A DNA stretch of 64,000 nucleotides, from the NCBI GenBank assembly GCA_028284865.1, contig JANQQV010000020.1, positions 310,001-374,000 on the forward strand, written 5' to 3'. Shown here piece after piece: positions 22,041-37,847 of the stretch (positions are counted from its first letter, which is position 1; each line of letters begins with the position of its first letter). The DNA is from Rhodothermales bacterium (GTDB lineage: Bacteria; Bacteroidota; Rhodothermia; Rhodothermales; UBA10348). The position numbers were made by a program, and so were the translations under genes. The notes under the pieces are model-generated. The model was not told the origin of the DNA and searched no databases. It saw only the letters and a program-made list of their open reading frames with translations.

Positions 22041-23144
22041 ATGGGCTCCCCTACCAAGCAGCCGAAAACATTGATAGCCGGCGGTGCCGGTTTTCTTGGC
22101 TCACATCTGTGTGACCGATTCCTTCGTGAAGGTCACCAGGTCACCTGTGTAGACAATCTTCTGACGGGCCGTCTGGAGAATGTCGATCATCTCCTGGGCA
22201 ATTCCGGGTTCACCTTCCTCCACCAGGACATCTCGACGTCCACGGATCTGGGTGATGACTATGACTACATCCTGAATTTCGCCTGCCCGGCCTCTCCGAT
22301 CGACTATCTCAAATACCCGATGGAGACCCTGGACGTGGGGTCATTCGGAATGAAGAACCTGCTGGACATTGCGATGCGCTCTGGTGCCCGCATCCTGCAG
22401 GCTTCCACCAGTGAAGTCTATGGCGATCCGCTGGTTCATCCGCAAAGTGAATCCTATTGGGGCCACGTCAATCCAATCGGTCCCCGTAGTGTGTACGATG
22501 AATCCAAGCGATTCGCTGAAGCGCTGATGGCATCTTATCACCGCGAGTTCGGTGTAGAGACCCGCATTGTGCGCATTTTCAACACCTACGGCCCGCGCAT
22601 GCGACTCGACGATGGGCGCGTGCTGCCCACCTTCATGAAACAGGCCCTCTCGGGCGAACCCATCTCCATTTTCGGTGATGGTTCACAGACGCGATCATTC
22701 TGCTATGTGGACGACCTGATTGAAGGTATCGTTCGGCTTCTGCACTCCGATGAGTCCGATCCGGTGAATGTCGGCAATCCTGACGAAGTCACCATCGGTC
22801 AATTTGCCGAAGAAATCGTCGCGTTGACAAACAGCGGAAGCACGATCAGCTATCACCCGCTTCCAAAGGACGATCCCAAAGTTCGCCAGCCTGACATCAC
22901 AAAAGCGAAGCGGGTCCTTGGCTGGTCACCTCAGATGAACCGGACGGAAGGACTCAAGGCAACCCTGGGCTATTTCGAAGAGGAAGTTGCAAAACTTGGG
23001 CTCACAAGCTCTCAGCCCGTCGTCCAGCACCGTCCTCTTGGTCGCATGGGCAATCGAGGAGCCATCCAGCGCCGTCGTCGGCAGAGTGATGCATTTCGTC
23101 ATCGCGCCTGGAAGAAAATCAAGATTACCGATCCACGCACATGA
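22041..23144 (+). CDS. UDP-glucuronate decarboxylase (UDP-xylose synthase), SDR family
   Basis: The enzyme converts UDP-glucuronate to UDP-xylose, a sugar donor for the polymer. Evidence: [13 protein letters not shown]-binding loop near the N-terminus, the family-specific [13 protein letters not shown] segment, STSEVYGD, and the catalytic pair Tyr152/Lys156 in YDESK preceded by [12 protein letters not shown]. The core is about 320 residues; this protein has 367, the extra being an arginine-rich tail (about 320-367) with no recognised domain. The stop overlaps the next start by four bases (ATGA), so translation is coupled to the copolymerase gene. No UDP-glucose dehydrogenase gene is present in the window to make the substrate. 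Confidence 0.88.
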
Positions 23145-25789
23145 ACTGGCCATCTCCACAGGACGAAGCTGGTAAGCGGACCGGGGCGCCTCAGAATCGC
23201 CCGTCCCGAACAACCGACCGTACGGATTCCGAACGGAAGCCTGCCGAGCGCCTGCCCAACAGGGCCGGGCGAAGGGGTGCAGGACGCCCTCCTGTGGACC
23301 CGGATTTCGAACGTTTTCTGACTTCTGCAGATTCATCGGGAACGCGATGGGCTTCGCCAACACCTTCGCCAGAAAAAGTGGAAGTGATCATTCCGGAAGA
23401 AGTCGAGGAGTATGAGCTCCCGACCTGGAAACGAATCGGTGAGGCCAGTCCGGATCGGGCCGCCCACCCGCATCCAAATCGGACGCAACAGGCGGCCGAT
23501 CAGCAGATCGTGCACATGCCGCATCCGCAGCCGCTGTTCCCGGGAGCAGGGGCGAGTGTGGAACGGGATGCAACCAATACCGAAAAGCATGTCCGATTCC
23601 TTTTCCGCCGATTCCCGTTGTTTCTGTTGGTCGCCATCGTCATATGGTCCATGGTGGCCATTTATCTGGCTGCTGTCCCTTCTACCTACCAGTCCGAGAC
23701 GACCCTGCTGATTGATATTGATGCATTCGAAAGCGAATTGGACGATCTGCCTCGTTTGAGCGCAGCAGGAGCCGGGTTTGGCAGCGGTAAGCTGGCCAAC
23801 CAGGTTCTCATTCTTCAGTCATCTCCTGAGTTGAGTCAGGGTGTGGCAACCGAGCTTGCCAGACTACGCTCGGAGTCTTCCGAACTGGCCAACTGGACCA
23901 TTTTCGATCGCCTGACTTCCTACTCGCGGGAAGGCGGATCGCTGGCCACCCTCCTGCTCGATGAGTACATCTCCGTGCAAGGTCGCTCAAGCGATGAGGA
24001 CGAGCCGGATGCCATTTCGATCGCGGCCACGAGTACGGATCCGGCTGAAGCCGCGCTGATCGCCAACATTTTTGGACAGAACTACGTGGACAAGGTCGAC
24101 CGTCTGGTCACTGATCAATTCACGGAAGCTCTGGGATTCTATCGCGATCGTCACGCCATCCAGCAGGCCCGCGTGGACGAGGTCTCCGATGACATCAAGA
24201 ATTTCATCCGTCAGGAAGGCGGATTTGCCTCTGAAGCGGATGCCGATCACATCCTTCAACAGATCGCGGCCCTCAACTCTTCGCTCGACGGCACAGCGAT
24301 CGATATCGAAGAGTTGAAGGCATCCATCGCCTCCCTGGAACAGGAAGTGGAATTGATGGACGGACAGCTGGTTGCAGAGCGTGCCGCGCACGGAATCGAA
24401 GACCAGCTGGACCAGACCTATGAGCGTATTGCCGAGCTCAACCTTGAGGTGGAGAAGTTCTACGTCAAGAATCCCGAGTTGCGCGCGGATCCCAGCCCCA
24501 GCAAGGACCTGACAGACATGGTCAACGAACGCACTGTTCTGTTGGCACAAGTAGACTCGCTGTCCCAGCTGTATTCCTCGGAAATCACGGCGGTAGGCGG
24601 CGTGGACCTGCGCTCGTACGACGGCGGAATCTCCTACATGGCATCGCTGCGTCGCGATCTCATCAAGAACCGGGTTCTGCTCAACGCAGCTGAGGCCAAA
24701 CAGCAGGCAACACTTGTTCGCCTTGCAGACTACGAGCGCATGCGGCGTACCCTGCCTGAGCGTGCGGTCGAATATCGCGAGCTGACGACACGCCATGAGC
24801 GTGCCATCAGAGAGGTCGACGATCTCGACGAGAAGATCCAGAAGATCGAAGAGGCTGCTGACGGACGTCGTGCCTTCGTTCGCATCCTCCATCCCGCTGT
24901 TGAGGCCACCAGTCCGAAGGTGCCTCCGATGATGATCGGGATCCTCGGGACGATCCTGGGCCTCCTGGCGGGTATCGGAGCCGCATTCACGGCTGAGAAG
25001 GCTGACCGCCGACTCTATGAGAAGTCTGACATCGAGCAGTTTGACGCAGAAGTGATTGCTTCCATCCCTCGTTTCCGTGGTGTCTCCCGCAAGCAGAAGG
25101 CATCGTTCTACGAGCGTACCATTTCGACAGAACTGCTGACCATTCTGCATCCGGAGTCACCGGTCTCGCGCTCTTTGCGCTCCATCCCGCTCCGCATCGC
25201 TGGCGATACGCTCAATCAAAGCGTGTTCGTCTTCACCGGTGTTGATCCGAAGGCTGGCACGAGTTTCCTGGCTGTGAACACGGCTGCTGCCCTTGCCCGC
25301 TCCGGTGCCCGTGTATTGCTGGTTGACGCACGACTGGTTAATCCCTCGGTCATTCCGATGCTCGGTCTCAGCGATCAAGCCCGATTTGATATGGCATCGA
25401 ACTCGTTTGCAGCCGGAAAGGGAATCGAAGCCTTTTCGGGTCGCATGCCGAACCTGTACGCCATGTCGCTTGAAGCTCCCAAAGGAGAGAATCCTGAATT
25501 CCTCCTGAGCTCTCACCTTGGTACGTTCATTCAGCGCGTCAAGAAGCAGTTTGATGCGGTCGTCATTGATGCTCCTCCGCTTTCGAATTCCACGGCCGCT
25601 CTGGGGCTATCGCGACTGGCCGATGAAATGGTGGTGACCGTCAAAGCCGGAATGACCCATGCCAATCGACTGGCCGATGCCATCGAAGACATCCGCAGTA
25701 CATCAGGGACCCACGCAAAAGTGGTTCTCAATGGCTCCGGAGCCAAGAAGGTTCGCTCTGGCGCAACGAGGGCAACAAGCCATGCTTGA
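23141..25789 (+). CDS. Wzz/GumC-like polysaccharide copolymerase with degenerate BY-kinase-like ATPase domain
   Basis: An 882-residue inner-membrane protein that should set polymer length. It has an unusual disordered, proline/arginine-rich N-terminus of about 150 residues, then TM1 (about 155-180), a periplasmic coiled-coil Wzz region, TM2 near 610-630 ([19 protein letters not shown]), and a Wzc/CapB-like cytoplasmic domain. In that domain the Walker A reads GVDPKAGTS (700-708), so the lysine of GK[ST] is Thr707. The A' motif reads VDARL instead of DxD. Walker B VIDAPP (Asp810) is intact. There is no C-terminal tyrosine cluster. ATPase and tyrosine-kinase activity are therefore doubtful. No outer-membrane export (OPX) gene is seen nearby. 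Confidence 0.88.
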
Positions 25790-25819: not shown

Positions 25820-27151
25820 GTGAAAACACGCATTCGTCATATCGCCCGTCGCATCGGAGGCGCCGCCCGTCACGCAGGGAGCGGCGCTTTCGTGGATCAA
25901 GGGATCATCAGTGGACTGAACTTTCTGACATTCCTGATTCTGGCCCGCTGGCTGGTTACGGAGGCCTTCGGCGCCTACGTCCTGGCATTCTCAGCGCTCA
26001 TGTTTTTTCAGACATTCCAGCATGCGCTGGTGACCCGCGCACACAATGTGCTTGGTGCTCGAAAAGAGGGCGCGACATACGACGCATTTACCCGTACGGC
26101 TCTGTTGTTGGTGACGGGCGGCGCAGCAAGTCTGGCGCTGTTGCTCGGAGCCACTTCGGGAGCGTTTGCTCTCCTCGGTCTCGATGCCTGGGCGGGAGCA
26201 ACTGCCGGGCTCGCGGTCGCGGTCCTGCCCTGGCTCGTACAGGATGCCATGCGCCGATTGTTGTACACGGCGGAGCGCATCAAGGCGGCGACGGTGAATG
26301 ATGCCGTCTCCTATCTGCTTCAATTCGGGGCCATCCTTGCACTCTTTCAACTGGATGTCTCGAGCAGCGTATTTCTCGTCTTCAGCGTACTGGGAGCTTC
26401 GTCCTTGGCCGCCTGTCTGGTTGGATGGTTCCAACTGAGGGACGTTCTCGCACAGCCTACGGATCGATCGTCATTCGTAGAAGACACCAAAGCCGTCTGG
26501 CACTATGGCAAGTGGCTGTCGTCTGGCGAATTGGTAGGATGGATTGGCCAGAATGGAAATACCTGGTTGATTGGTGGGTTGTTGGGTGCGCCATTGGTAG
26601 CAGGCTACCGTGCGGCTTCTTACGTGACCAACCTGCTGAATCCGTTCGACCTCGCGGTCTCCAACTATCTGCCCGTACGGGCCTCACGTGTTCGTGAATC
26701 GGAAGGACAGTCCGGCATGAACCGGTGGCTGTTTCGTCAGGGCTTGATGCTGTGTGTTCCGTACGCCCTTCTAGCTGTCGCGATCACCGTGTTCGCCGGA
26801 GATCTGCTTAGACTCTTCTACGACGCCCGGTATGCTACCGACTTACTGGCACTCGTGTTGGCCGTAACGGTCTGGGCTCGATTTTTTGGTTTCGTGGTGA
26901 ACTTCGCTCGATTGGGCTTGATGGCTTCCGAACGGAATCTGCCCATCTTCGTCTCGCAGATCATGGGGCTCGTCGTGTTTGCGGTCGTCTCCACGATCCT
27001 GATTTCGTCCATCGGCATTGTCGGTGCACCTCTTGGACGCATTGTCCTGCATATCATTGTTGGTGTCTACCTCGCGCAACGCCTGATATCGACGTCTCGT
27101 GACAAGGCTGTCAAGCCAGCTTTCTGGAAGCCATCGGAGGTCTCGTCATGA
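25820..27151 (+). CDS. Polysaccharide flippase (Wzx/MATE-like)
   Basis: A 443-residue polytopic protein starting at a GTG 30 bases after the copolymerase gene. Roughly 12 hydrophobic segments are visible, with the early motif FVDQGIISGLNFLTFLILAR typical of the polysaccharide-synthase (PST/MOP) flippases, and later pairs of helices near the C-terminus (FVSQIMGLVVFAVVSTILI). It should move lipid-linked repeat units across the inner membrane. Its last codons overlap the next gene by four bases. Its position between the copolymerase and glycosyltransferases supports the Wzx role; specificity cannot be read. Confidence 0.85.
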   Translation: MKTRIRHIARRIGGAARHAGSGAFVDQGIISGLNFLTFLILARWLVTEAFGAYVLAFSALMFFQTFQHALVTRAHNVLGARKEGATYDAFTRTALLLVTGGAASLALLLGATSGAFALLGLDAWAGATAGLAVAVLPWLVQDAMRRLLYTAERIKAATVNDAVSYLLQFGAILALFQLDVSSSVFLVFSVLGASSLAACLVGWFQLRDVLAQPTDRSSFVEDTKAVWHYGKWLSSGELVGWIGQNGNTWLIGGLLGAPLVAGYRAASYVTNLLNPFDLAVSNYLPVRASRVRESEGQSGMNRWLFRQGLMLCVPYALLAVAITVFAGDLLRLFYDARYATDLLALVLAVTVWARFFGFVVNFARLGLMASERNLPIFVSQIMGLVVFAVVSTILISSIGIVGAPLGRIVLHIIVGVYLAQRLISTSRDKAVKPAFWKPSEVSS

Positions 27152-29178
27152 CCCGGATTCCGGAAACATCGGCTTCCTCGCCTGCTTCGACAATGCGGGT
27201 GCTAGGAAAAGGATCGGAGGCGACGGTTTACCTCGATGCGCGTGCGAACCGTGCTGTCAAGCAGTTTGACCGTGCACCCATCGCTATCGCCCGGAGCAAG
27301 GCACGTTCGGAGTTTGCGCGCCTGCAGCGCGCACACAACCTGACGCACTCGAGCCGTAGTGTAAACGTGCCAGCTCCGGGTACATTGAATGAGCCTGCTG
27401 CATCATTCTCCATGGGTATTGTTCATGGCCCGTCGTTGCTGACCCAACTACTGGGTGGCTCCATTGCCGACGAGCTCATGCGCACACTCGCCGCCTTCAC
27501 AGCCGAAGGATTCCAGCTCTTCCGTGAGATCCTGTCCGACTTCACGCTGGATCACCTTTTTCCAATCGGGAATGAGCGGATCACGTTTGTCGACTTCGGA
27601 AACGGATCTGCAAGCGAAGAGGGACTGACGCCTGAAGGCACACGAGCGACGTTCATTGAGGCGGCAGGTGCCACGCTGTACGAATGCACACGCCCTGCAC
27701 GGTTCTTCAATCGATCCGGCATGGAACGTTGTGCCGATTTCCTGGCCTACGTCGCTGTAGAGTTAGGAATCAATTGGGACCAAGCTCTCCAGCATGCCAT
27801 TGACGCGCGATTCAATGAGCGAGGTAAGGGTGGTTCTGCGACCCGCATCGCTTGGTATGCATTTGCGGGACGAATCAACCGAAAGCGGTTCTTTTCCCGA
27901 TTGAGTCAGACCATCGAACTGAACACCTTGACTAAAGGGGTCTCGGTCGACTCGGCCAGTATTGCAGATTCCGAATCTGCAGAGGTGACTTCCTCACGCG
28001 CCGAAACCGAGTCGATCGCTATAGCTGATTCAGTCGCAACAACCGATTCAGGCGCACTAACCGAAATCATCTCTTTTGTCTGGGACTTCCCAGAAGAAGA
28101 CGGTGCGTTCACCAACGGCATTCACAAAGTTGTGGACGGCATGATGGCGGCCATGGTGCGCCAAGGCACATCCGCCACTGTACTTGCTCTCGGATCCCAG
28201 CCCTCTACGCATACCAGAAAGGGCTATCGCGTCGAGCATCTACGTGCTGGCCGCATCCCTCCCATCCAGACTATCAGGCAGCGCATTCAGCGTGCTGGAC
28301 CAGGCGCAGTGACGTTTTTCCACGGCACCTTCAACCCCAGGTATACGCTGCTCGCTCGTGCATTGCGCCGTCATCAACTTCCGTATGTGGTCGTGCCGCA
28401 CACGTTGATGGACGATGGCTTTTTCTCAGTCAGTCGTCTGAAGAAGGCGATTTACTGGAAGGCGTTTGAACGGAAATTCCTGGACCAGGCTTCCTGTATC
28501 TGCTCCTACGATTTGGGTCAGAAGAAGAACCTGGCGTCTCGAGGTGTGCATGCTCCCATGATCGAGTCCTGGAACGGCATCTGTGATCCGGTCGTCCCGA
28601 AAACGGATCGCTATTCCACAGAAGGGTCCGTGCGATTCCACTTTTTCGGTCGTATCGCGACAGGCACCAAGGGACTGGACATGTTGCTGGACGCAACGGC
28701 TAGAGTTTCAAAGACCAAGGACATTGAGGTCATCATCCAAGGCCCAGGTACTGAAGATCTCGACGACCTGAAGCAGTGCGCTTCTGATCTCGGTATTGCA
28801 CAGGTGGTCCGTTTTGAACCGCCAGCCTCTTCGCCGAATCCCATCCTCATCATGGCGGAATATGATGTCAGCATCCTGTCGTCCCGCTACGAAGGATTCC
28901 CCACGGCGTTGGTCGAGGCCATGATGGCCGGACGACCCATCGTGACAACGAGAGTCGGCACCCTGGCTCCCGTCCTTGAGCGTGAAGGAATCGCAGAAGT
29001 GGTCGATACCACCAGTGAGTCCATCGCTCAGGGCATGCTGAACGTGATCAAAGCGCGCAGCCAGTGGCCTGAAATCGGCCTGAACGGCCGGCAGTGGGCG
29101 ATGAATCACTTGCAATGGGACCCGATCGTTCAGCGGCTACTTGCCGATCTGAACGCGTGTCTCAATCGTCCGTCATGA
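27148..29178 (+). CDS. Kinase-like domain fused to GT4 glycosyltransferase
   Basis: One 676-residue chain with two unrelated domains. Residues about 16-245 look like a protein/sugar-kinase fold: glycine-rich GKGSEATVY (20-28), VKQ lysine (Lys38), a possible alpha-C Glu55, and VDFGNG with Asp149 as the DFG metal residue. The catalytic loop reads SDFTLD (131-136) in place of the GDxxxxN of kinases, so His136 replaces the Asn. A Ser/Ala/Asp/Thr-rich linker (about 265-305) leads to a GT4 glycosyltransferase with E-x7-E in EGFPTALVE (582-590). The C-terminal part should transfer a sugar to the lipid-linked repeat unit. The N-terminal part may phosphorylate a sugar such as Kdo or heptose, or regulate the enzyme; both are inference. 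Confidence 0.8.
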   Translation: MTRIPETSASSPASTMRVLGKGSEATVYLDARANRAVKQFDRAPIAIARSKARSEFARLQRAHNLTHSSRSVNVPAPGTLNEPAASFSMGIVHGPSLLTQLLGGSIADELMRTLAAFTAEGFQLFREILSDFTLDHLFPIGNERITFVDFGNGSASEEGLTPEGTRATFIEAAGATLYECTRPARFFNRSGMERCADFLAYVAVELGINWDQALQHAIDARFNERGKGGSATRIAWYAFAGRINRKRFFSRLSQTIELNTLTKGVSVDSASIADSESAEVTSSRAETESIAIADSVATTDSGALTEIISFVWDFPEEDGAFTNGIHKVVDGMMAAMVRQGTSATVLALGSQPSTHTRKGYRVEHLRAGRIPPIQTIRQRIQRAGPGAVTFFHGTFNPRYTLLARALRRHQLPYVVVPHTLMDDGFFSVSRLKKAIYWKAFERKFLDQASCICSYDLGQKKNLASRGVHAPMIESWNGICDPVVPKTDRYSTEGSVRFHFFGRIATGTKGLDMLLDATARVSKTKDIEVIIQGPGTEDLDDLKQCASDLGIAQVVRFEPPASSPNPILIMAEYDVSILSSRYEGFPTALVEAMMAGRPIVTTRVGTLAPVLEREGIAEVVDTTSESIAQGMLNVIKARSQWPEIGLNGRQWAMNHLQWDPIVQRLLADLNACLNRPS

Positions 29179-29188
29179 ACGATGAATC

Positions 29189-30703
29189 GTGAGCATCACA
29201 ACAGCACATAGCGTCCCCTCGTCAACGAATTCCGGCGTTGCGCAGCGAATGAATAAGTCCGCGACCACTTCGCGCATTCTATTGGTCGCCTACGCGTGTA
29301 GTCCGGGGCGCGGTTCGGAGGAATCTGTTGGATGGGATACGGCAGAAGCATTGTGCGGACTTGGGCATGAAGTTACTGTTCTCACGAGAACGGCTGAGAG
29401 GAACGCGTGCCCATCTCCATCAGAACGACATCCATCGCTATCCATCGTCTGTCACGACAATCCTTCCTCGTGGCAGAGGCGCTTTGACGGAATCGGTAAG
29501 CTTGGTGTTGAGTTCGGCTACATGATGTGGCTGCGCTCTGCACGGCGCGTCGTAATTGATCTGCAGACCCGAATCGGGTTCGATTCTGCGCAGCACGTCA
29601 CGTACGCCCGCTACTGGATGCCATCGCCCCTCCAGGTTCTGGATATCCCCTGGATATTGGGCCCCGTAGGCGGTGGCGAATCCATCCCTCCTTCTCTGCG
29701 CAAGACCCTCAGTCGGGCCGGGCGTGTTTTCGAAGGCGTACGTGACATCATGCGATATGTCGGCGAAGCCTCACCTGCTGTTCGCCTGGCTGCTCGAAGC
29801 GCCTCTGTTTGCCTGGCGAACACCTCTGAAACTGAAGAACGGTTGCGGTACCTGGGAGCCCGTCGCACAGAAATCATCAACTCTGCTGCTCTTGCAGACA
29901 CAGAGTTTGCTCGACTTGCGTCCGGCGACGCTTCTGATGCTGCTCCGTCGCCCCGCAGAGGGTTTGTAAGTGTAGGCCGGCTGCTGGACTGGAAAGGATT
30001 CCATCTGGGGCTGGAAGCATTTGCGGCATCCGGATTGGCCGGCAGCGAGATCTACACCATCATTGGAACGGGCCCTTTCGAAGCTCAACTTCGTGCCAAG
30101 GCCAACGAACTTGGAATTACTGGATCGGTCGAATTCACAGGCATGCTGCCCCGTCAGGAAGTATTCCGACGGATAGCCCAGGCACGTGCGCTCATTCATC
30201 CGAGTTTGCATGAATCGGGCGGATTCGTGTGTCTTGAGGCCATGGCTTCTGGTACGCCTGTGGTCTGTATCGATACTGGTGGACCGGGACTGTTCGTCCT
30301 TCCAGAATGCGGTTATCCCGTGCCTGCATCTAGCCCCGCAGTGACCGTCGAGGCGCTTGCCGAAGCAATGCAAAGTGCGGCTCTCGATTCGTCTGACTTC
30401 ACATCGAAGAGTGTGTACGGCAAGGAGCACGTACAAAAGCATCACATCATGAGCGTGAAGGCGAACAGACTGGACGCGCTGCACAGGGATATACAGCGAG
30501 GCGATATTCGGCAACGCGATATGCTGCATCGTGATATGTTGCAAAGCGATAAACAGAATCGGGAGACGAACGAGCGCGGTTTGCAGACGCATTTATCGCC
30601 ATTGGCGCTGGTCGACCGGGATCCGCTGAACGCGACATTGCCTTCTCCTCGCGCGACTGCGCTGGATTCCGTGCATGGTATCGCTGAGGATCACAAGTCG
30701 TGA
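29189..30703 (+). CDS. GT4 glycosyltransferase with repeat-encoded C-terminal tail
   Basis: A 504-residue protein from a GTG at 29189; a later ATG at 29249 begins just before the Rossmann strand RILLVAYACSPGRGSE and is a credible alternative. GSEESVGWD, LGPVGGGE, VGRLLDWKGF and ESGGFVCLE (E342 and E350) are GT4 landmarks, so it is a retaining GT-B transferase using a nucleotide sugar. The catalytic part ends near residue 410. The last 90 or so residues are hydrophilic and contain five copies of a D-(I/M/K)-x-x-(R/G/S) pentapeptide encoded by 15-base repeats. The stop overlaps the next gene. Confidence 0.85.
   Translation: MSITTAHSVPSSTNSGVAQRMNKSATTSRILLVAYACSPGRGSEESVGWDTAEALCGLGHEVTVLTRTAERNACPSPSERHPSLSIVCHDNPSSWQRRFDGIGKLGVEFGYMMWLRSARRVVIDLQTRIGFDSAQHVTYARYWMPSPLQVLDIPWILGPVGGGESIPPSLRKTLSRAGRVFEGVRDIMRYVGEASPAVRLAARSASVCLANTSETEERLRYLGARRTEIINSAALADTEFARLASGDASDAAPSPRRGFVSVGRLLDWKGFHLGLEAFAASGLAGSEIYTIIGTGPFEAQLRAKANELGITGSVEFTGMLPRQEVFRRIAQARALIHPSLHESGGFVCLEAMASGTPVVCIDTGGPGLFVLPECGYPVPASSPAVTVEALAEAMQSAALDSSDFTSKSVYGKEHVQKHHIMSVKANRLDALHRDIQRGDIRQRDMLHRDMLQSDKQNRETNERGLQTHLSPLALVDRDPLNATLPSPRATALDSVHGIAEDHKS
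30488..30562 (+). repeat. Five 15-base in-frame tandem repeats in the GT4 tail
   Basis: Units start GATAT (last one GATAA) and encode DIQRG, DIRQR, DMLHR, DMLQS and DKQNR. The period is exactly 15 bases, so gain or loss of units keeps the frame. This suggests slippage expansion in a non-catalytic tail. Confidence 0.85.
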
Positions 30704-32310
30704 TGCGCAGCGCAGCGACAACATATCATGACGCTTCGGAAGCGATAGGTACGTCTGGATCCAAATCCGGTCGAGCGACGCGGACGCATTCCATGCCTTC
30801 TCAGCCGTGGACACCGGATCCCGCCATGATGAGGAAAGGCTTGGACGGTCTTTCGCCTCTTTTTCGTCTGTTCGCACGGAGTCTCGCATTCATCCTGCTT
30901 GGTTATGGGGTGATCGGGCGCGGATTCGCTTACCTCGGATTCAACCCGCTGTTTGTTGGTGAGATGGTCCTCGGGCTGGGCCTGATCGCGATGATGTCAT
31001 CACGACACATGGGAGCAGCCTTGAAAACGTGGACCGGGCGCTGGTTGCTGATCTTCATCGGCTGGAGCGCCCTCATGACGCTTCCCTACCTCCCGATATA
31101 CGGCATGATGGCTCTCAGGGACGGCGTTCTCTGGGGCTATGCCTTGTTTGGGTTGATCGTGGCCTCCGTAGTCATGGCAGCTCCACAGATCATGCGCTGG
31201 ATGCTGGTCAGATATCGCCTATTCGCGCTCGCCTTCCTGTGCACCGCCTGGGCCATGTGGACGATTTCTTCCATGGAACTACTCACGTGGATCAAGGCAC
31301 CTGGCTCGGATGTCGGATTTTTCAATATCAAGGGCGGAGACCAGCTGGTTCATCTGGCCGCGATCGCGGCATTCGTGTCTGTCGGCATGAGCCGTCACCG
31401 GATCCTGATGCTTGCCGGTATCCTCTTCAATTTTGCCTTCCTGCTCACGTCGAAGCGTGCCGGAATGGTAGCCTTCGCGTTGGCATTCGGATTCCTCGTC
31501 TTGATGAATCCGCCAAAGCTGAAACTCAGTGGCATCGTCTATGCCGGTATCCTGGGTGTCACGCTGCTCTTGCTCATCAACCCCAAGATCGATCTCGGGG
31601 GTGACAGGGAGATCTCCGTCGAGCAGATGACGGACAATGTAGTCAGCACGTTCGACCGCTCGGGAACGTCTACTCTCGATGATACCAAGTCCTGGCGCCT
31701 GGATTGGTGGACCAAAATCGTCCAGTATTCGCTCACGCCGCGCTACGTCTTCACGGGTAAAGGCTACGGCATCAACCTGGCCACCGATGATGGTTTTCAG
31801 GTTCGTGAGGACGATTCCCTGCGCAGCCCGCACAATGCCCATTTGAACATCATGGCGCGATCCGGAATTCCCGGATTTCTCCTGTGGGTCATGGTCCATG
31901 CGTCCTGGTTCTTTGCCATGCTCGGAGGTGCTCGCAGCGCCAAGAAACAGGGCTTTGTCAACTGGCATGGCATTTTCTGTTTCCTGATCTGCTACTGGAT
32001 TGCACTCATGGCCAACGCCTCGTTCGACGTCTTTCTGGAAGGACCGATGGGAGGCGTCTGGCTGTGGTCCGTCATGGGCTTCGGCATTGCGGCCCGTTAC
32101 CATTTTGATCGCAATCCAGAGTGGGCCATGGACGCCATCGCGATTCCTGGTGGCTCCGGAATGACTATGACGTCATCTGGTAACGAGAATTCATTGAACG
32201 ACCTGTCCGCCCGCCCCGAGAGCCGCCGTTTCCGCAATGGCAGTCCATCTGTGAGTCGCTCCGATTCGCAGCGGCCGCCCGTTCGCCACTACACGGACCT
32301 TCGTCGATGA
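30700..32310 (+). CDS. O-antigen polymerase/ligase-like membrane protein (Wzy)
   Basis: A 536-residue polytopic protein starting GTG ATG and overlapping the previous stop by four bases. After a 45-residue hydrophilic N-terminus there are about 10-11 membrane segments. The Wzy_C-type periplasmic loop is marked by TSKRAGMVAF and, near residue 385, SPHNAHLNIMARSGIPGFLL, the HN-x-HLNxxxxxGIPG signature of polymerases and WaaL ligases. In this position it most likely polymerises the repeat units flipped by the upstream Wzx. A soluble tail of about 65 residues ends the protein and overlaps the next gene by four bases. Confidence 0.85.
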   Translation: MMRSAATTYHDASEAIGTSGSKSGRATRTHSMPSQPWTPDPAMMRKGLDGLSPLFRLFARSLAFILLGYGVIGRGFAYLGFNPLFVGEMVLGLGLIAMMSSRHMGAALKTWTGRWLLIFIGWSALMTLPYLPIYGMMALRDGVLWGYALFGLIVASVVMAAPQIMRWMLVRYRLFALAFLCTAWAMWTISSMELLTWIKAPGSDVGFFNIKGGDQLVHLAAIAAFVSVGMSRHRILMLAGILFNFAFLLTSKRAGMVAFALAFGFLVLMNPPKLKLSGIVYAGILGVTLLLLINPKIDLGGDREISVEQMTDNVVSTFDRSGTSTLDDTKSWRLDWWTKIVQYSLTPRYVFTGKGYGINLATDDGFQVREDDSLRSPHNAHLNIMARSGIPGFLLWVMVHASWFFAMLGGARSAKKQGFVNWHGIFCFLICYWIALMANASFDVFLEGPMGGVWLWSVMGFGIAARYHFDRNPEWAMDAIAIPGGSGMTMTSSGNENSLNDLSARPESRRFRNGSPSVSRSDSQRPPVRHYTDLRR

Positions 32311-34643
32311 GTATGCCCCATCGACATATACTTGGCATGCGTGTGGACTCGGGCAACTATGACACGATGTCGACCCGCATATGTGGCTGGGCCGAAAAGG
32401 CCGAGAACCGGTATGTCTGTGTCTCGAATGTGCACATGACGATGGAAACGGTCGATTCCGAAGCGTTCAGGGATGTTGTGAATGGGGCGGACATGGTGAC
32501 CTCGGATGGGATGCCGTTGGTCTGGATGCTCCGAAAGCTCGGACTGCCAGAATCCGAACGGGTTTACGGACCAGAGCTCGTTCTCCACGTCTGCGAACGT
32601 GCAGAGAATGCAGGCATCCCGATCGGTTTGTACGGCGGTACAGACGAGAGTCTGGCTCGATTCACGGCATTTCTGGCTGAAAAGTATCCCGACTTGAAGG
32701 TCGCCTACCAGTGGGCCCCTCCTTTCAGGCCGCTGACCGATGAAGAAGACGTAGCGATGGTCAACGAACTTGCGGAAAGTGGGGCTCGCATCCTGTTAGT
32801 GGGCATCGGATGTCCAAAGCAAGAGCGATTCATGGCGGCGCACAAGGATAGCATTCAGGCGGTCCAGCTCGGCGTCGGTGCAGCGTTCGATTTCCACAGC
32901 GGTGCCGTCAAACAGGCCCCAGAGTGGATGGGGCGTTCCGGTCTCGAATGGCTGTTCCGCCTGGCAATGGAGCCCAAGCGTCTGTGGCGACGCTATGTCA
33001 TCCACAACCCGCGATTCATGGTTCGAGCTGCTTGGCAACTCGCCACCCAACGACAAAAAGCCGTTTCCGCTGTCGTCGGAGCGCTGGTTGTAGCCTTCGG
33101 TTTGTTGCTGAGTGGCTTCCATCAAAGCGACGATCATCACAGCGGAATCCATCAGAGCAACGATCATCACGACGGGATCCGTTACAGCGACGACTATCGG
33201 AGCGAAGTCCGCTCGGGCGAATTGGCCTTCGAGACCTTCTTTGTCGATCAGGCGCATCCCGACGCTTCCGACAGCAATCCGGGTACCTCAACGCTGCCGT
33301 TTCGAACGATCTCAGCGGCTCTGGCGGCCGATGGAATCAGTGCTGGGGATACCGTGCTCGTTGGAGGCGGGATATACAGGGAAAGGCTCAATCCCCAGGT
33401 CGGTGGAGATGGGCGGCATGCTCGCCTCGTCATTCAAGCCAGAAAGGGCGACGAAGTAATCGTTACTGGTGCAGACCCGATCGGATACCCGGAACACCTC
33501 TCAGGCACCACCTGGGTAGTCAACAACTACGTCCCGCTGGACTACTTCGGTGACGACTACGTGTACCAGCGTGAGTTGGTCGTGGCCGATGGTGAAACCC
33601 TGAAGCCGGTATTTGCCCAAGCAGACTTGGTAGCGGGTACGTTTTTCGTAGACCGGTATTCTGCCACGTCAGGACGCATCCTGATCGATTCGGGTTCAAC
33701 CGAAGCGCCTTCGCTTGAGGTCGCGCGACGCGGGGCCTTGTTCTTTCCGGGCAATCGGTACGCGAACTGCGGCGATCCAGAGCAGCCATCAGCTTTTCAT
33801 CTTATCGGTCTGACCTTCCGTCACGCCGCAAACGCGGCTCAGTATGGAGCCGTTTGCGTTGGTGGCCGGGACTCCTTACTCGAGCACGTCACCGTTGAGT
33901 GGACCATCGGAACGGGAATCCAGGTCATCGGATCGGGACATCGCCTCTGGAATGTCACGTCCAATAATCACGGTCAAACAGGCATCAACGGGAGATGCAC
34001 GGGATGTGCGTTGGTCGATACCGAAACGTCATTCAACAATTTCGTGGGGCATGATGTCTTTTGGGAAGCTGGTGGAGGCAAATGGGCCTATTCGACCGAT
34101 GTTCAGTTCCTGCGACACACGTCCATCGGCAATGACGGTCCTGGTCTGTGGTTTGACGGCGACAATGTCCGCATGACGGTCTCGTACAGCCTATTCGACA
34201 ATAACCTTGCAGCAGGCGTCTTCATCGAACTCGATTCGCATGACGTCCTTGTGGAGCGTGTGACGATCAAAAATACCCGGCGACTGGGCTGGACTGGAGC
34301 GGGCGTTCTCATTCAGGCGACCGGGGGCGCGACTCTTCGCGACAATCTGCTGGAAGGCAATGAAGGCGCCGGCATCTGGATGCGCCGTGATGACCGATCG
34401 GAGCCTGGATTCAACACAGTGACAGGAAACGTCTTCAGCGGGAATGCGACGGTTCCCGATCAGGACCGTGCCGATCTCCAGATTGATGCTGAGACGCAGA
34501 TTGAGCTCTGCAGCAATCAACTGGTCGACAACCAATTCATGGAGAGCGCCCATTTTCGATTCACAGTCGACACCAATGGCGACACGTTCAAAGGCAACGA
34601 CCTGGATCACTTCAAGTGCCTGGTTGACTATTCGGGTCGTTGA
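32307..34643 (+). CDS. WecG/TagA/CpsF (GT26) glycosyltransferase fused through a TM segment to a parallel beta-helix domain
   Basis: Residues 1 to about 245 are a GT26 transferase: SNVHMTMETVDS, TSDGMPLVWM, GIGCPKQE (166-173) and FDFHSG are family signatures; such enzymes add N-acetylmannosaminuronate or similar sugars to undecaprenyl-PP-linked acceptors in the cytoplasm. A single membrane helix (about 252-271) follows a positively charged stretch, so the rest should be periplasmic. Next is a His/Asp-rich linker of three 10-residue repeats (270-299), then a DUF1565-like start (DASDSNPGTSTLPFRTISAA) and a right-handed beta-helix with many NN/GN turn motifs, as in polysaccharide lyases and AlgG-type epimerases. 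No lyase or epimerase active site is certain. I know of no standard family with this architecture. Confidence 0.85.
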   Translation: MSMPHRHILGMRVDSGNYDTMSTRICGWAEKAENRYVCVSNVHMTMETVDSEAFRDVVNGADMVTSDGMPLVWMLRKLGLPESERVYGPELVLHVCERAENAGIPIGLYGGTDESLARFTAFLAEKYPDLKVAYQWAPPFRPLTDEEDVAMVNELAESGARILLVGIGCPKQERFMAAHKDSIQAVQLGVGAAFDFHSGAVKQAPEWMGRSGLEWLFRLAMEPKRLWRRYVIHNPRFMVRAAWQLATQRQKAVSAVVGALVVAFGLLLSGFHQSDDHHSGIHQSNDHHDGIRYSDDYRSEVRSGELAFETFFVDQAHPDASDSNPGTSTLPFRTISAALAADGISAGDTVLVGGGIYRERLNPQVGGDGRHARLVIQARKGDEVIVTGADPIGYPEHLSGTTWVVNNYVPLDYFGDDYVYQRELVVADGETLKPVFAQADLVAGTFFVDRYSATSGRILIDSGSTEAPSLEVARRGALFFPGNRYANCGDPEQPSAFHLIGLTFRHAANAAQYGAVCVGGRDSLLEHVTVEWTIGTGIQVIGSGHRLWNVTSNNHGQTGINGRCTGCALVDTETSFNNFVGHDVFWEAGGGKWAYSTDVQFLRHTSIGNDGPGLWFDGDNVRMTVSYSLFDNNLAAGVFIELDSHDVLVERVTIKNTRRLGWTGAGVLIQATGGATLRDNLLEGNEGAGIWMRRDDRSEPGFNTVTGNVFSGNATVPDQDRADLQIDAETQIELCSNQLVDNQFMESAHFRFTVDTNGDTFKGNDLDHFKCLVDYSGR
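33114..33203 (+). repeat. Three 30-base in-frame repeats encoding a His/Asp-rich linker
   Basis: Units read GFHQSDDHHS, GIHQSNDHHD and GIRYSDDYRS, immediately after the membrane segment of the GT26-beta-helix fusion. Clustered His and Asp could bind metal ions in the periplasm; this is inference. Confidence 0.8.
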
Positions 34644-34811: not shown

Positions 34812-36359
34812 GTGCCTGAGCAATCTGACAATCCCATGCAATTGGTTGGCAACCGTCCGGCATCCCGAATCCGTGGAACGGACTGCCTCATGGAGAACAT
34901 GGAAATCTCCGACCATATGGTCGGGGAAACTGTGCTCGCCCATGAAACACGTGGCCATTACGTGTCCGCCCGCGCGTTCGAAACGCGTCGGATCTACAAT
35001 GCGATTGCGTTGATGCTCGGCGACATGCTCGCCTTGACCGGTGTGCTGTACCTGACAGGCGTTCTCAGGAGCGCCGTGGTGGGTCAACCGCTGTTCCAGT
35101 GGTGGATCGAACTCGTTCTTCCCGTCTGGATTATCGGTGCCCTTGGCGGCAAGCTGTATCCAGGCTGGGGACTTGGCGCTGTCGAGGAATTGCGTCGTCA
35201 AACGCTAACTCTGGTGGGCGTCTTCTCGTTTGCTGCGGTCCTGCTTTTCTGGTTCCAAATGGGCGAGGAAACCAGTCGATTCGCCTTGACGGTGGCCTTT
35301 TTGCTCTCCCTGGTCGCCGTTCCAGCCATGCGAAGGGTCGTGAAAACCCTTCTGATCAAAGCCGGTCTCTATGGACTGCCGGTGGTGATCTATGGCGCTT
35401 CCAAACTGGGACGCGAACTGGTCGATCATCTTGAGGATGAAAAAGGACTGGGGTATAAGCCCATCGCCTTCCTTGACGATCATCCCTCCTATTGGGGTGC
35501 GCGATTGCGTGGAGTCCCAGTACTGGGTGACACGAATCTGGTCCTGCCAGAAGCCCAAGTGGCCATTCTCGCCATGCCCAATGTTGAACCCGAATTCAGA
35601 CAGCACCTGCTTGAAGGACCACTCTCCTACTACCGCAGCGTCATCATCATTCCCGACATCTCTGAGCTGCCTTCTCTCTGGGTAGGCACGATAGATCTCG
35701 GTGGGACGCTTGGGTTGAAGCTGAGTATGAATCTGGCCGACCCGATTTCACGCTTCGTGAAGCGGTCGTTTGATCTGGCTGCCTCGTTATTGGCTGGGCC
35801 GCTCTGGCTCCCCATGGTAGGCTTTTTTGCAGCACTGATCTGGCTGGAAGATCGCAAGAACCCCTTCTTCGTCCAGAAACGGGTCGGGAGTAATGGCGAC
35901 GAGTTCGGTACCTGGAAATTCAGAACCATGGTGCCCGATGCCGAAGCCACGCTTCAGCAGGCTCTCGAAAACGACGCGGAATTGAAGGCCGAATGGGAGC
36001 GCGATTTCAAGCTGAAGAACGACCCGCGCATCACACGCATCGGAAGATTCCTGCGCAAGTTCTCCATCGATGAGATTCCGCAGCTGTTCAATGTGGTTTC
36101 AGGAACGATGTCGCTCGTCGGCCCGCGCCCACTGCCGGCTTATCACGAGGAAGAACTCAATGATCGCGTGCTTTCCATGCGTCGTCGCGTACGGCCCGGA
36201 ATGACGGGCCTCTGGCAGGTTTCTGGGCGCTCTGATGCAGGGACGGACGGCATGGAGCAGTTTGACTCGTATTACGTGCGCAACTGGTCCCTGTGGCTGG
36301 ACATCGTCATTCTGGTCCGCACGTTCCGCGCTGTCTCGCGATCTGCAGGGGCTTACTAG
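34812..36359 (+). CDS. Polyprenyl-phosphate sugar-1-phosphate transferase (WbaP family), initiating enzyme
   Basis: A 515-residue protein from a GTG. Four or five N-terminal membrane segments, a central nucleotide-binding-like domain (VVIYGASKLGRELVDHL) and the C-terminal catalytic domain give the full-length WbaP/PglC layout. The catalytic part (from about 315) has KRSFDLAASL, PFFVQKRVGSNG, WKFRTM, DPRITRIGRFLRKFSIDEIP and GPRPLPAYH. The enzyme transfers a hexose-1-phosphate, often Gal or Glc, from a UDP-sugar to undecaprenyl phosphate and so starts each repeat unit. It is the last gene of the cluster and is separated from the rest by 168 bases, so it may have its own promoter. Confidence 0.92.
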   Translation: MPEQSDNPMQLVGNRPASRIRGTDCLMENMEISDHMVGETVLAHETRGHYVSARAFETRRIYNAIALMLGDMLALTGVLYLTGVLRSAVVGQPLFQWWIELVLPVWIIGALGGKLYPGWGLGAVEELRRQTLTLVGVFSFAAVLLFWFQMGEETSRFALTVAFLLSLVAVPAMRRVVKTLLIKAGLYGLPVVIYGASKLGRELVDHLEDEKGLGYKPIAFLDDHPSYWGARLRGVPVLGDTNLVLPEAQVAILAMPNVEPEFRQHLLEGPLSYYRSVIIIPDISELPSLWVGTIDLGGTLGLKLSMNLADPISRFVKRSFDLAASLLAGPLWLPMVGFFAALIWLEDRKNPFFVQKRVGSNGDEFGTWKFRTMVPDAEATLQQALENDAELKAEWERDFKLKNDPRITRIGRFLRKFSIDEIPQLFNVVSGTMSLVGPRPLPAYHEEELNDRVLSMRRRVRPGMTGLWQVSGRSDAGTDGMEQFDSYYVRNWSLWLDIVILVRTFRAVSRSAGAY

Positions 36360-36485: not shown

Positions 36486-37847
36486 ATGTCTCAGGCAACC
36501 AACGCTCCTGCGCGTTCCTGGTCCGTTGATTGGACCAATACCCTCTTTCTCGGTGGTTATCACCTCCTCCTGATCATCCTGCTGCCGATCTATCTCATCC
36601 AATCGGATGTATCGGCCAGCTTGGTATGGAGCACAGCAGGATTGTGGACGCTGTGTTTGCTGGCTATCACGATGGGCTACCATCGGCTTTATGCCCACGT
36701 AACCTACAAGACGCACCCGGTAATCGAAGCCTTCTTGGCCTTCTGGGGCACGGTTGCCACGCAGGGTAGCATCTTCTCCTGGGCCCACGACCATCGGATC
36801 CACCATCGCCATGTCGATACAGATCTGGATCCCTACAGCGCTCCGAAGGGGTTCTGGCACTCCCACGTCCTGTGGATGCTGAAAAAACGGCCAGACATCA
36901 ATCCTCGCATCATCAAGGATCTGTGGAAGCGTCCCGAGCTTCAGTTTCAGCACAAGCATTTCGCCAGCCTCATGGTGGGCGCAAACGCGATTGCTTTTGC
37001 CGGAGTGTGGGCTATTACGGGAGATGCATTTGGTGCATTCGTGATCGGTGTCCTTCTCCGCTTGTTCCTTGTCCACCACTGCACATGGTTCATCAACTCG
37101 CTGGCCCACATGTGGGGATCCCAGCCCTACAGCACGGAGCACACGGCGGTCAACAACTTCATCCTGTCCATCCTGACCTTCGGCGAAGGCTACCACAACT
37201 ATCACCATACGTTTGCAGGCGATTACCGCAACGGCGTCCGCTGGTGGCAGTTTGACCCGGCCAAAATTGTCATCTGGACGTTGAGCAAAATCGGTCTGGC
37301 GCACGACCTCAAGAAGGTGAACAACCTCACGATCAAGCGTCGTCTGGTTGCGGCTGATCGACACCTGATGATGGAGCGGATCGAAGAGCTGCGCCACCGC
37401 ATTGACGTAGACGCCTGGAGCCTCAAAGTCGAGGAAGCAGCTGCTTCACTGACGGAGAACCTGAATGGCTTGAAAACCGCCTCGGACAAGCTCCAGCGCA
37501 TGAAGAACGAGACTATCGAACAGATGCGCACGGTCCGGGACGAAAAGGTCCAGGAAATGCGCGTTGCCCGCGATGTCAAAATGCAGGAGTTGCGCACTGC
37601 ACGTGACGAGAAAATGGCGGAGATGCGAACGGCTCGTGACGAGACCATCCAGCAGATGCGTGACGCTCGCGACGAGACCCTGGAGCAGATGCGCGCTCGC
37701 CGCGATGAGGAGCTCGAAGTCTTGAATCGCCGCATTGCCGAACTGAAGCAGACAGTCGCCGAAGAGATGGATGCCTGGAAGGAAATGGTCCACCTCGTCC
37801 TCGAGACTCCAGAGTCCCGGCTGGCTGCGATTCCGGTTCGCGCCTGA
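36486..37847 (+). CDS. Acyl-CoA/fatty acid desaturase with C-terminal hendecad coiled coil
   Basis: Residues 1 to about 290 form a membrane di-iron delta-9-type desaturase: four hydrophobic segments and the three histidine boxes HRLYAH, HDHRIHHRH and GYHNYHH, with HTAVNN between. It should introduce a double bond into membrane fatty acids, using a redox partner not encoded nearby. Most bacterial members end soon after this point. Here another 165 residues follow: a linker and, from 336, seven clear 11-residue repeats with consensus MRTARDEKMQE, then a weaker eighth. Hydrophobic residues at positions 1, 4 and 9 predict a right-handed hendecad coiled coil or an amphipathic lipid-binding helix, on the cytoplasmic side. 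Confidence 0.9.
   Translation: MSQATNAPARSWSVDWTNTLFLGGYHLLLIILLPIYLIQSDVSASLVWSTAGLWTLCLLAITMGYHRLYAHVTYKTHPVIEAFLAFWGTVATQGSIFSWAHDHRIHHRHVDTDLDPYSAPKGFWHSHVLWMLKKRPDINPRIIKDLWKRPELQFQHKHFASLMVGANAIAFAGVWAITGDAFGAFVIGVLLRLFLVHHCTWFINSLAHMWGSQPYSTEHTAVNNFILSILTFGEGYHNYHHTFAGDYRNGVRWWQFDPAKIVIWTLSKIGLAHDLKKVNNLTIKRRLVAADRHLMMERIEELRHRIDVDAWSLKVEEAAASLTENLNGLKTASDKLQRMKNETIEQMRTVRDEKVQEMRVARDVKMQELRTARDEKMAEMRTARDETIQQMRDARDETLEQMRARRDEELEVLNRRIAELKQTVAEEMDAWKEMVHLVLETPESRLAAIPVRA
37491..37721 (+). repeat. Seven 33-base repeats encoding 11-residue helices in the desaturase tail
   Basis: The units begin with LQRMKNETIEQ and continue MRTVRDEKVQE, MRVARDVKMQE, LRTARDEKMAE, MRTARDETIQQ, MRDARDETLEQ and MRARRDEELEV. 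The 33-base period is kept without interruption, indicating tandem duplication. Confidence 0.85.

Follow-up and report, generated by a model that had tools for sequence, protein, structure and literature searches.

A GT26 glycosyltransferase joined through a membrane helix to a GH120-like beta-helix domain in a Rhodothermales polysaccharide cluster

The window analysed here is a stretch of 64,000 nucleotides from a Rhodothermales bacterium (assembly GCA_028284865.1, contig JANQQV010000020.1, positions 310,001 to 374,000 of the forward strand). Its gene at 32307..34643 (+) encodes a single chain of 778 amino acids (aa), in which a GT26 glycosyltransferase of the WecG/TagA/CpsF type is followed by a membrane helix and a right-handed beta-helix domain resembling glycoside hydrolase family 120 (GH120). 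It is established computationally that the frame is continuous, that it recurs in related genomes with a single origin, that it lies in a polysaccharide cluster, and that its beta-helix has a GH120-like fold with a conserved catalytic pair. On balance, a former signal peptide in this product probably ties a cytoplasmic GT26 enzyme to a periplasmic GH120-like retaining glycosidase at the inner membrane, a reading favoured with only modest confidence.

The fused frame, its recurrence and its GT26 half

The frame starts with an ATG at 32307, which overlaps the stop codon of the Wzy-type gene before it (ATGA, 32307-32310), and stays open as far as its own stop (34641-34643). The GT26 catalytic domain with its C-terminal appendage occupies 32307..33056 (+; aa 1-250), the membrane helix 33060..33119 (+; aa 252-271, with positive residues, QRQK, on its N-terminal side), and the beta-helix domain 33222..34640 (+; aa 306-778). 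A 30-bp tandem repeat of 2.5 copies (33118..33193, +) codes for a His/Asp-rich spacer. Pfam assigns Glyco_tran_WecG to aa 61-230 (E 7.9e-57), Beta_helix to aa 516-657 (E 5.6e-15) and DUF1565 to aa 648-714 (E 7e-9). The beta-helix part exceeds the Pfam gathering cut-offs with PF13229 (55.7 bits), PF07602 (35.7 bits) and PF05048 (33.1 bits); these Beta_helix, DUF1565 and NosD matches are at the level of repeats and carry no defined function. The protein has one hydrophobic stretch, the 20 residues at aa 252-271. An AlphaFold2 model of the full chain, based on 36 aligned sequences, has a mean predicted local distance difference test score (pLDDT) of 89.7 and two confident domains. An unbroken helix (224-269) extends from the C-terminal end of GT26 across the hydrophobic stretch. 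Disorder follows at residues 272-304 (pLDDT <50), and the beta-helix spans about 309-770. At a predicted template modelling score (pTM) of 0.64 the orientation of the GT26 domain relative to the beta-helix is undefined by the model. A preliminary description, made from the DNA letters alone, had read the gene as one frame with a single transmembrane helix between the two halves, and both points are borne out.

Homologues were sought first in 60 relatives and then in 114 genomes of the order. The same fusion was found in three Rhodothermales metagenome-assembled genomes (MAGs) besides the 3.48-Mb genome of the window (G000), namely G011, G017 and G026, which belong to another genus of the same family. 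Two of these proteins (L031 and L032) measure 755 aa and 745 aa; the third (L033, in G026) ends at a contig end. All three frames are continuous or run to the contig end, and are homologous to the window protein on both sides of the junction. Identity among the fusions is 67-70% in the GT26 part and 48-52% in the beta-helix. In the beta-helix tree the four fusions form one clade (support 100/100); those three whose GT26 part is complete are likewise monophyletic in the GT26 tree (99/99). No further copy of either part was found in the four fusion genomes. These sequence relationships point to a single origin of the GT26 fusion.

Most relatives in the order carry GT26 and the beta-helix as two genes, as would be expected if an assembly error, or a chance open frame in a GC-rich genome, had joined separate genes in the window. 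The same junction in three other MAGs and the monophyly of the fusions make that explanation scarcely credible, and the homologues are not always split, the outcome that the preliminary description had named as a sign of misassembly. A long frame of 850 aa in G014 was rejected as a further fusion, being a GC-rich overlapping frame. Outside the family (f1) the GT26 fusion was found neither in a 394-genome sample of the phylum searched with the beta-helix profile nor in a 296-genome sample searched with PF03808.

In the nearest relatives within the family (G014, G019 and G022) the beta-helix gene is separate. In G008 it is fused instead to a GT4 transferase (L034:9121-11898, 925 aa), whose GT4 part is 37-40% identical to the GT4 gene lying beside the separate beta-helix gene in those three genomes. 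This resemblance suggests that the exported domain has been fused twice, each time with whichever transferase lay upstream. The combination of GT26 with an exported beta-helix appears to be undescribed, as had been supposed, both halves being of known kinds; a search of the open-access literature gave no paper on a fusion of a periplasmic hydrolase with a glycosyltransferase.

Membership of the first half in GT26 is clear, with 192.2 bits against PF03808 (curated cut-off 27.4) and 186.2 bits against TIGR00696 (cut-off 69). It matches TagA (7mpk) with E 9.5e-26, and TagA D65, R214, R221 and R224 align with D67, R218, R225 and R228 of the fusion. TagA is activated once its C-terminal appendage binds the membrane and brings Arg221 into the active site (PMC6493773). 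Since the appendage here runs on into the membrane anchor and the TagA residues are kept, the GT26 half should, by analogy, remain permanently at the membrane. Its donor sugar probably differs from that of TagA, because TagA Thr37 aligns with Val39.

The GH120-like beta-helix and its probable export

A beta-helix profile built from 11 Rhodothermales sequences gave one strong match among solved proteins, the GH120 beta-xylosidase XylC (3vst; E 1e-23), followed by mannuronan C5-epimerases (E 6e-6). The score derives mostly from an N-terminal segment, and the catalytic segment alone scores weakly. The alignment places D617 (codon 34155..34157, +) on XylC D382 and E641 (codon 34227..34229, +) on XylC E405, the nucleophile and the acid/base of GH120; in other GH120 enzymes activity is abolished by mutation of the corresponding residues (PMC8954004). 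The isolated domain was modelled by AlphaFold2 with pLDDT 93.1, and Foldseek ranked XylC 3vst first (E 2.2e-18, template modelling score 0.68 by query) and the GH141 protein BT_1002 second (E 1e-10). An independent set of GH120-type proteins from Bacteroidota was also used (L107-L110, 53-58% identical to a XylC fragment, and L111, 38%). Against this set hhalign gave the beta-helix group a probability of 99.6% (E 3.4e-24), with the same Asp and Glu in register and with K592 (codon 34080..34082, +, within FWEAGGGKW) aligned to a Lys of the GH120-type proteins. K592, D617 and E641 are invariant in 42 homologues from Rhodothermales, Planctomycetota, Armatimonadota, Verrucomicrobiota and other groups.

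The best reading of the conserved GH120 catalytic pair is a retaining glycosidase with D617 as candidate nucleophile and E641 as candidate acid/base. Of the preliminary assignment as a DUF1565-like beta-helix acting as lyase, epimerase or scaffold, the fold thus stands and the proposed activities give way to a glycosidase. By sequence the group is filed as GH120-like and not as GH120, because its members have about 470 aa (against about 600 aa) and carry WFDGDN or WLDGDN in place of the WLDW.AQGTR of XylC and of L107-L110, matching GH120 at profile level only. The reading offers a candidate function for beta-helix proteins of several phyla hitherto annotated only as Beta_helix, NosD or DUF1565. 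One stand-alone homologue (L048:4406-7039) carries a type IX secretion C-terminal sorting domain (PF18962); related beta-helix enzymes are therefore directed to different sites, the periplasm, a lipoprotein form, the outside and the inner membrane.

Stand-alone homologues, whose start codons are mechanical guesses, begin with a hydrophobic segment, nearly always with a lipobox or a signal-peptidase-I-like site behind it; at the start of the L036 stand-alone protein no cleavage site was scored by the simple rule. The membrane helix of the fusion lies directly behind the GT26 appendage, in the position of this signal peptide or lipobox. Four Cys are invariant across the 11 Rhodothermales beta-helices, which fits an oxidising compartment. 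Because of these Cys and the signal-peptide-like stand-alone N-termini, a single-pass topology with the beta-helix outside is most likely, in line with the periplasmic placement in the preliminary description.

As expected of a type II signal anchor, one helix and a positive-inside charge were observed; cleavage was judged by the (-3,-1) rule only, not by SignalP. By that rule no canonical site follows the hydrophobic core in the fusions of the window, L031 and L032, whose cores are 16-21 residues long, and the candidate triplets of the window protein fall inside the core. From these sequences we think that most GT26 fusions stay uncleaved as anchors and that the GT4 fusion may be cut.

The His/Asp-rich spacer reported earlier is present and confined to this genome, the other three fusions having different and shorter spacers. 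The repeat is incidental, and a metal-binding role for it was rejected on account of this restriction. Translation of the beta-helix on its own, from one of the internal ATG, GTG or TTG codons, was likewise rejected, as none of these has a Shine-Dalgarno-like sequence and none is common to all. Two other genes of the window contain short repeats. A 15-bp repeat (30501-30551, +; RDMLHRDMLQ...) lies close to where the GT4 gene at 29189-30703 ends, and a 33-bp tandem repeat gives a fatty-acid desaturase (36486-37847, +; PF00487, E 1.4e-20) its long, charged C-terminal tail of repeats (RDEKMQEMRTA...). Together with the spacer this suggests short repeat expansions in the coding sequence of this genome.

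The polysaccharide cluster

The fused gene is surrounded by the components of a Wzy-dependent cluster, namely an initiating transferase, Wzx (by orthology only), Wzy, Wzc and glycosyltransferases. The first gene (22041..23144, +) encodes a UDP-glucuronate decarboxylase (UDP-xylose synthase), for which the top matches among solved proteins are UXS1 throughout (E about 1e-106). It is followed by a Wzc-type chain-length determinant and tyrosine autokinase (23141..25789, +; NCBIfam and synteny) and a putative Wzx-type flippase (25820..27151, +). The latter had no direct family match in NCBIfam and is assigned by orthology, a homologue inside a fusion in L036 matching Polysacc_synt. Next come a kinase-like N-terminus fused to GT4 (27148..29178, +; GT4 by Pfam, kinase-like by motif only), a GT4 glycosyltransferase (29189..30703, +; Pfam) and the Wzy-type polymerase or O-antigen ligase family protein (30700..32310, +; PF04932, E 4.4e-15). 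Behind the fusion lies a WbaP/WcaJ-type initiating sugar-phosphate transferase (34812..36359, +; TIGR03022, E 5.7e-129, above cut-off, and synteny).

Synteny was read in 19 genomes with the window's own cluster proteins as queries. The clusters of the family hold UDP-xylose synthase, Wzc, Wzx, kinase-like GT4, Wzy, GT26, GT4, beta-helix and WbaP/WcaJ-type transferase genes, variously rearranged. The beta-helix gene stands immediately before the WbaP/WcaJ-type gene in 13 of the 19 (G000, G011, G017, G026, G008, G014, G022, G019, G056, G081, G082, G084 and G085) and elsewhere in the same cluster in G033 and G045. In the stretches read from G030, G037 and G083 it has no WbaP/WcaJ-type neighbour, and in G054 the only copy lies outside the cluster.

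The N-terminal extension of the 27148-29178 product, about 230 residues, resembles a small protein-kinase/RIO fold (GKGSEATVYL..., HLFPIGNERITFVDFGNG). Pfam found no family in the first 301 residues, and the homologous region in L036 has a sub-threshold Pkinase match (E 0.26). In G022 and G019 (L036:15340-18849 and L045:2000-5479) the Wzx-type flippase and the kinase-like GT4 protein are encoded together in a single frame of about 1160 aa; their counterparts in the window are separate genes with a 4-nt overlap (25820-27151 and 27148-29178).

Possible role, alternatives and known systems

In a Wzy-dependent pathway for exopolysaccharide or capsule, the gene product would act as an enzyme on both sides of the inner membrane. 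Its GT26 domain would face the cytoplasm and add one sugar to the undecaprenyl-diphosphate-linked repeat unit. Its C-terminal helices would be prolonged into a permanent membrane anchor, which may derive from, or replace, the signal peptide of a once-separate secreted enzyme. The anchor would export the C-terminal beta-helix to the periplasm and keep it where Wzx delivers and Wzy joins repeat units. There the putative GH120-like glycosidase might trim, edit or clear the polymer as it forms. Xylose residues are a conceivable target, a UDP-xylose synthase being encoded at the head of the cluster. Operon-encoded hydrolases elsewhere have been proposed to trim or clear polymer during assembly, and by this analogy such a role is the most economical one for the beta-helix. 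Many polysaccharide operons encode an enzyme that cuts their own polymer, and the reason is debated. Here a transferase is fused to a putative glycosidase, and in a relative a different transferase takes its place; this suggests that cutting takes place while the polymer is being assembled at the inner membrane, and not at a later stage outside the cell.

Several observations weigh against this picture. Identity to XylC in the Foldseek alignment is only about 18%, so the specificity of XylC is not transferable to the fusion, and hydrolytic activity is something we infer for every member of the group. UDP-xylose synthase is present in 90 of the 114 genomes of the order and missing near several beta-helix clusters; the xylose link is therefore weak, and genome co-occurrence, being uninformative, was rejected as a guide to xylose specificity. 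Other fusions occur in this operon, and the joining of neighbouring genes could be neutral. L033 has a borderline cleavage site (GLS|SP), and the GT4 fusion L034 has a good signal peptidase I site (AQA|AP) between its halves, so some such fusions may be cut apart.

There is some chance that the fusion is synthesised whole and cut at export by signal peptidase or another protease. GT26 and the glycosidase would then be separate proteins with nothing in common but their expression, and the fusion would be neutral or merely stoichiometric. This would agree with the signal-peptide position of the helix, with the sites in L034 and, more weakly, L033, and with the change of partner between lineages. 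The genes of relatives are adjacent or overlap by 4 nt, so a small change suffices for fusion. It is harder to reconcile with the lack of a canonical site in three fusions, with cores at the long end for cleavable signals, and with an in-frame fusion kept in four genomes diverged to about 50% identity. A lyase, a C5-epimerase or a non-catalytic polymer-binding scaffold in place of the glycosidase is unlikely. The domain does match PL6 lyases and mannuronan C5-epimerases, more weakly, the invariant K592 might take part in a lyase reaction, and AlgG is a periplasmic polysaccharide-modifying beta-helix enzyme; yet GH120 comes first by large margins in sequence, profile-profile and fold comparisons, both its carboxylates are in register and invariant, and GH120-type proteins share the equivalent of K592. 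It is rather improbable that the retaining enzyme is mainly a transglycosylase, passing pieces of glycan on to a periplasmic-side acceptor instead of hydrolysing them. GH120 relatives catalyse transxylosylation (PMC8954004), and a transferase held beside Wzy by a tether would be in a good position for grafting chains or capping them; on the other hand, no acceptor or acceptor site is known, and the sequence holds nothing that discriminates a hydrolase from a transglycosylase.

For the tethered glycosidase preferred here, the coupling of synthesis inside to polymer handling outside that was proposed at the outset fits the cluster context. A specific coupling of GT26 to the beta-helix is not to be assumed, because the partner is GT26 or GT4 according to lineage; tethering to the inner membrane, or merely shared expression, is the safer inference. 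That polymer engagement in the periplasm might control the membrane-active form of GT26 through the continuous helix is a long shot; in TagA it is the insertion of the corresponding appendage that brings about activation. If true, outside trimming and inside Wzy-dependent synthesis would be mechanically coupled in one chain.

Among known systems, PslG, PelA, BcsZ and AlgL are periplasmic glycoside hydrolases or lyases of exopolysaccharide operons. They resemble the proposed glycosidase in cutting polymer in the periplasm and in being encoded alongside the genes for its synthesis. Unlike it, they stand alone or are joined to further periplasmic domains; we know of none that is anchored through the membrane to a cytoplasmic glycosyltransferase. 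WcaM of the Escherichia coli colanic acid cluster is likewise encoded in a Wzy-type cluster and is regarded as a beta-helix protein, for which the open-access search gave no supporting paper. It differs in being a separate gene with a Tat-like start and no Pfam beta-helix match. Long GT26 frames in another family of the phylum (f27; L121-L125) were rejected as examples of the present fusion. They also link GT26 covalently to another enzyme of its pathway, with GT26 C-terminal and with an N-terminal initiating-transferase-like partner resembling bacterial sugar transferases (assigned by eye), and have no exported partner. With TagA, WecG and CpsF (for example TagA 7mpk of T. italicus) the fusion shares the full GT26 domain, the catalytic Asp, the appendage arginines and the C-terminal membrane-binding helices. 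The appendage of TagA is peripheral and binds reversibly, whereas that of the fusion extends into a transmembrane helix and an exported enzyme. With XylC of Thermoanaerobacterium saccharolyticum (3vst, 3vsu) the fusion domain shares the right-handed beta-helix, the catalytic Asp and Glu in register and the N-terminal segment DSNPGT..P..TI..A...GD.v.v..G.YRE. The fusion group differs from XylC in its GGGKW motif, in the four Cys conserved in Rhodothermales, and in being exported, encoded in polysaccharide-synthesis clusters and, here, joined to a glycosyltransferase.

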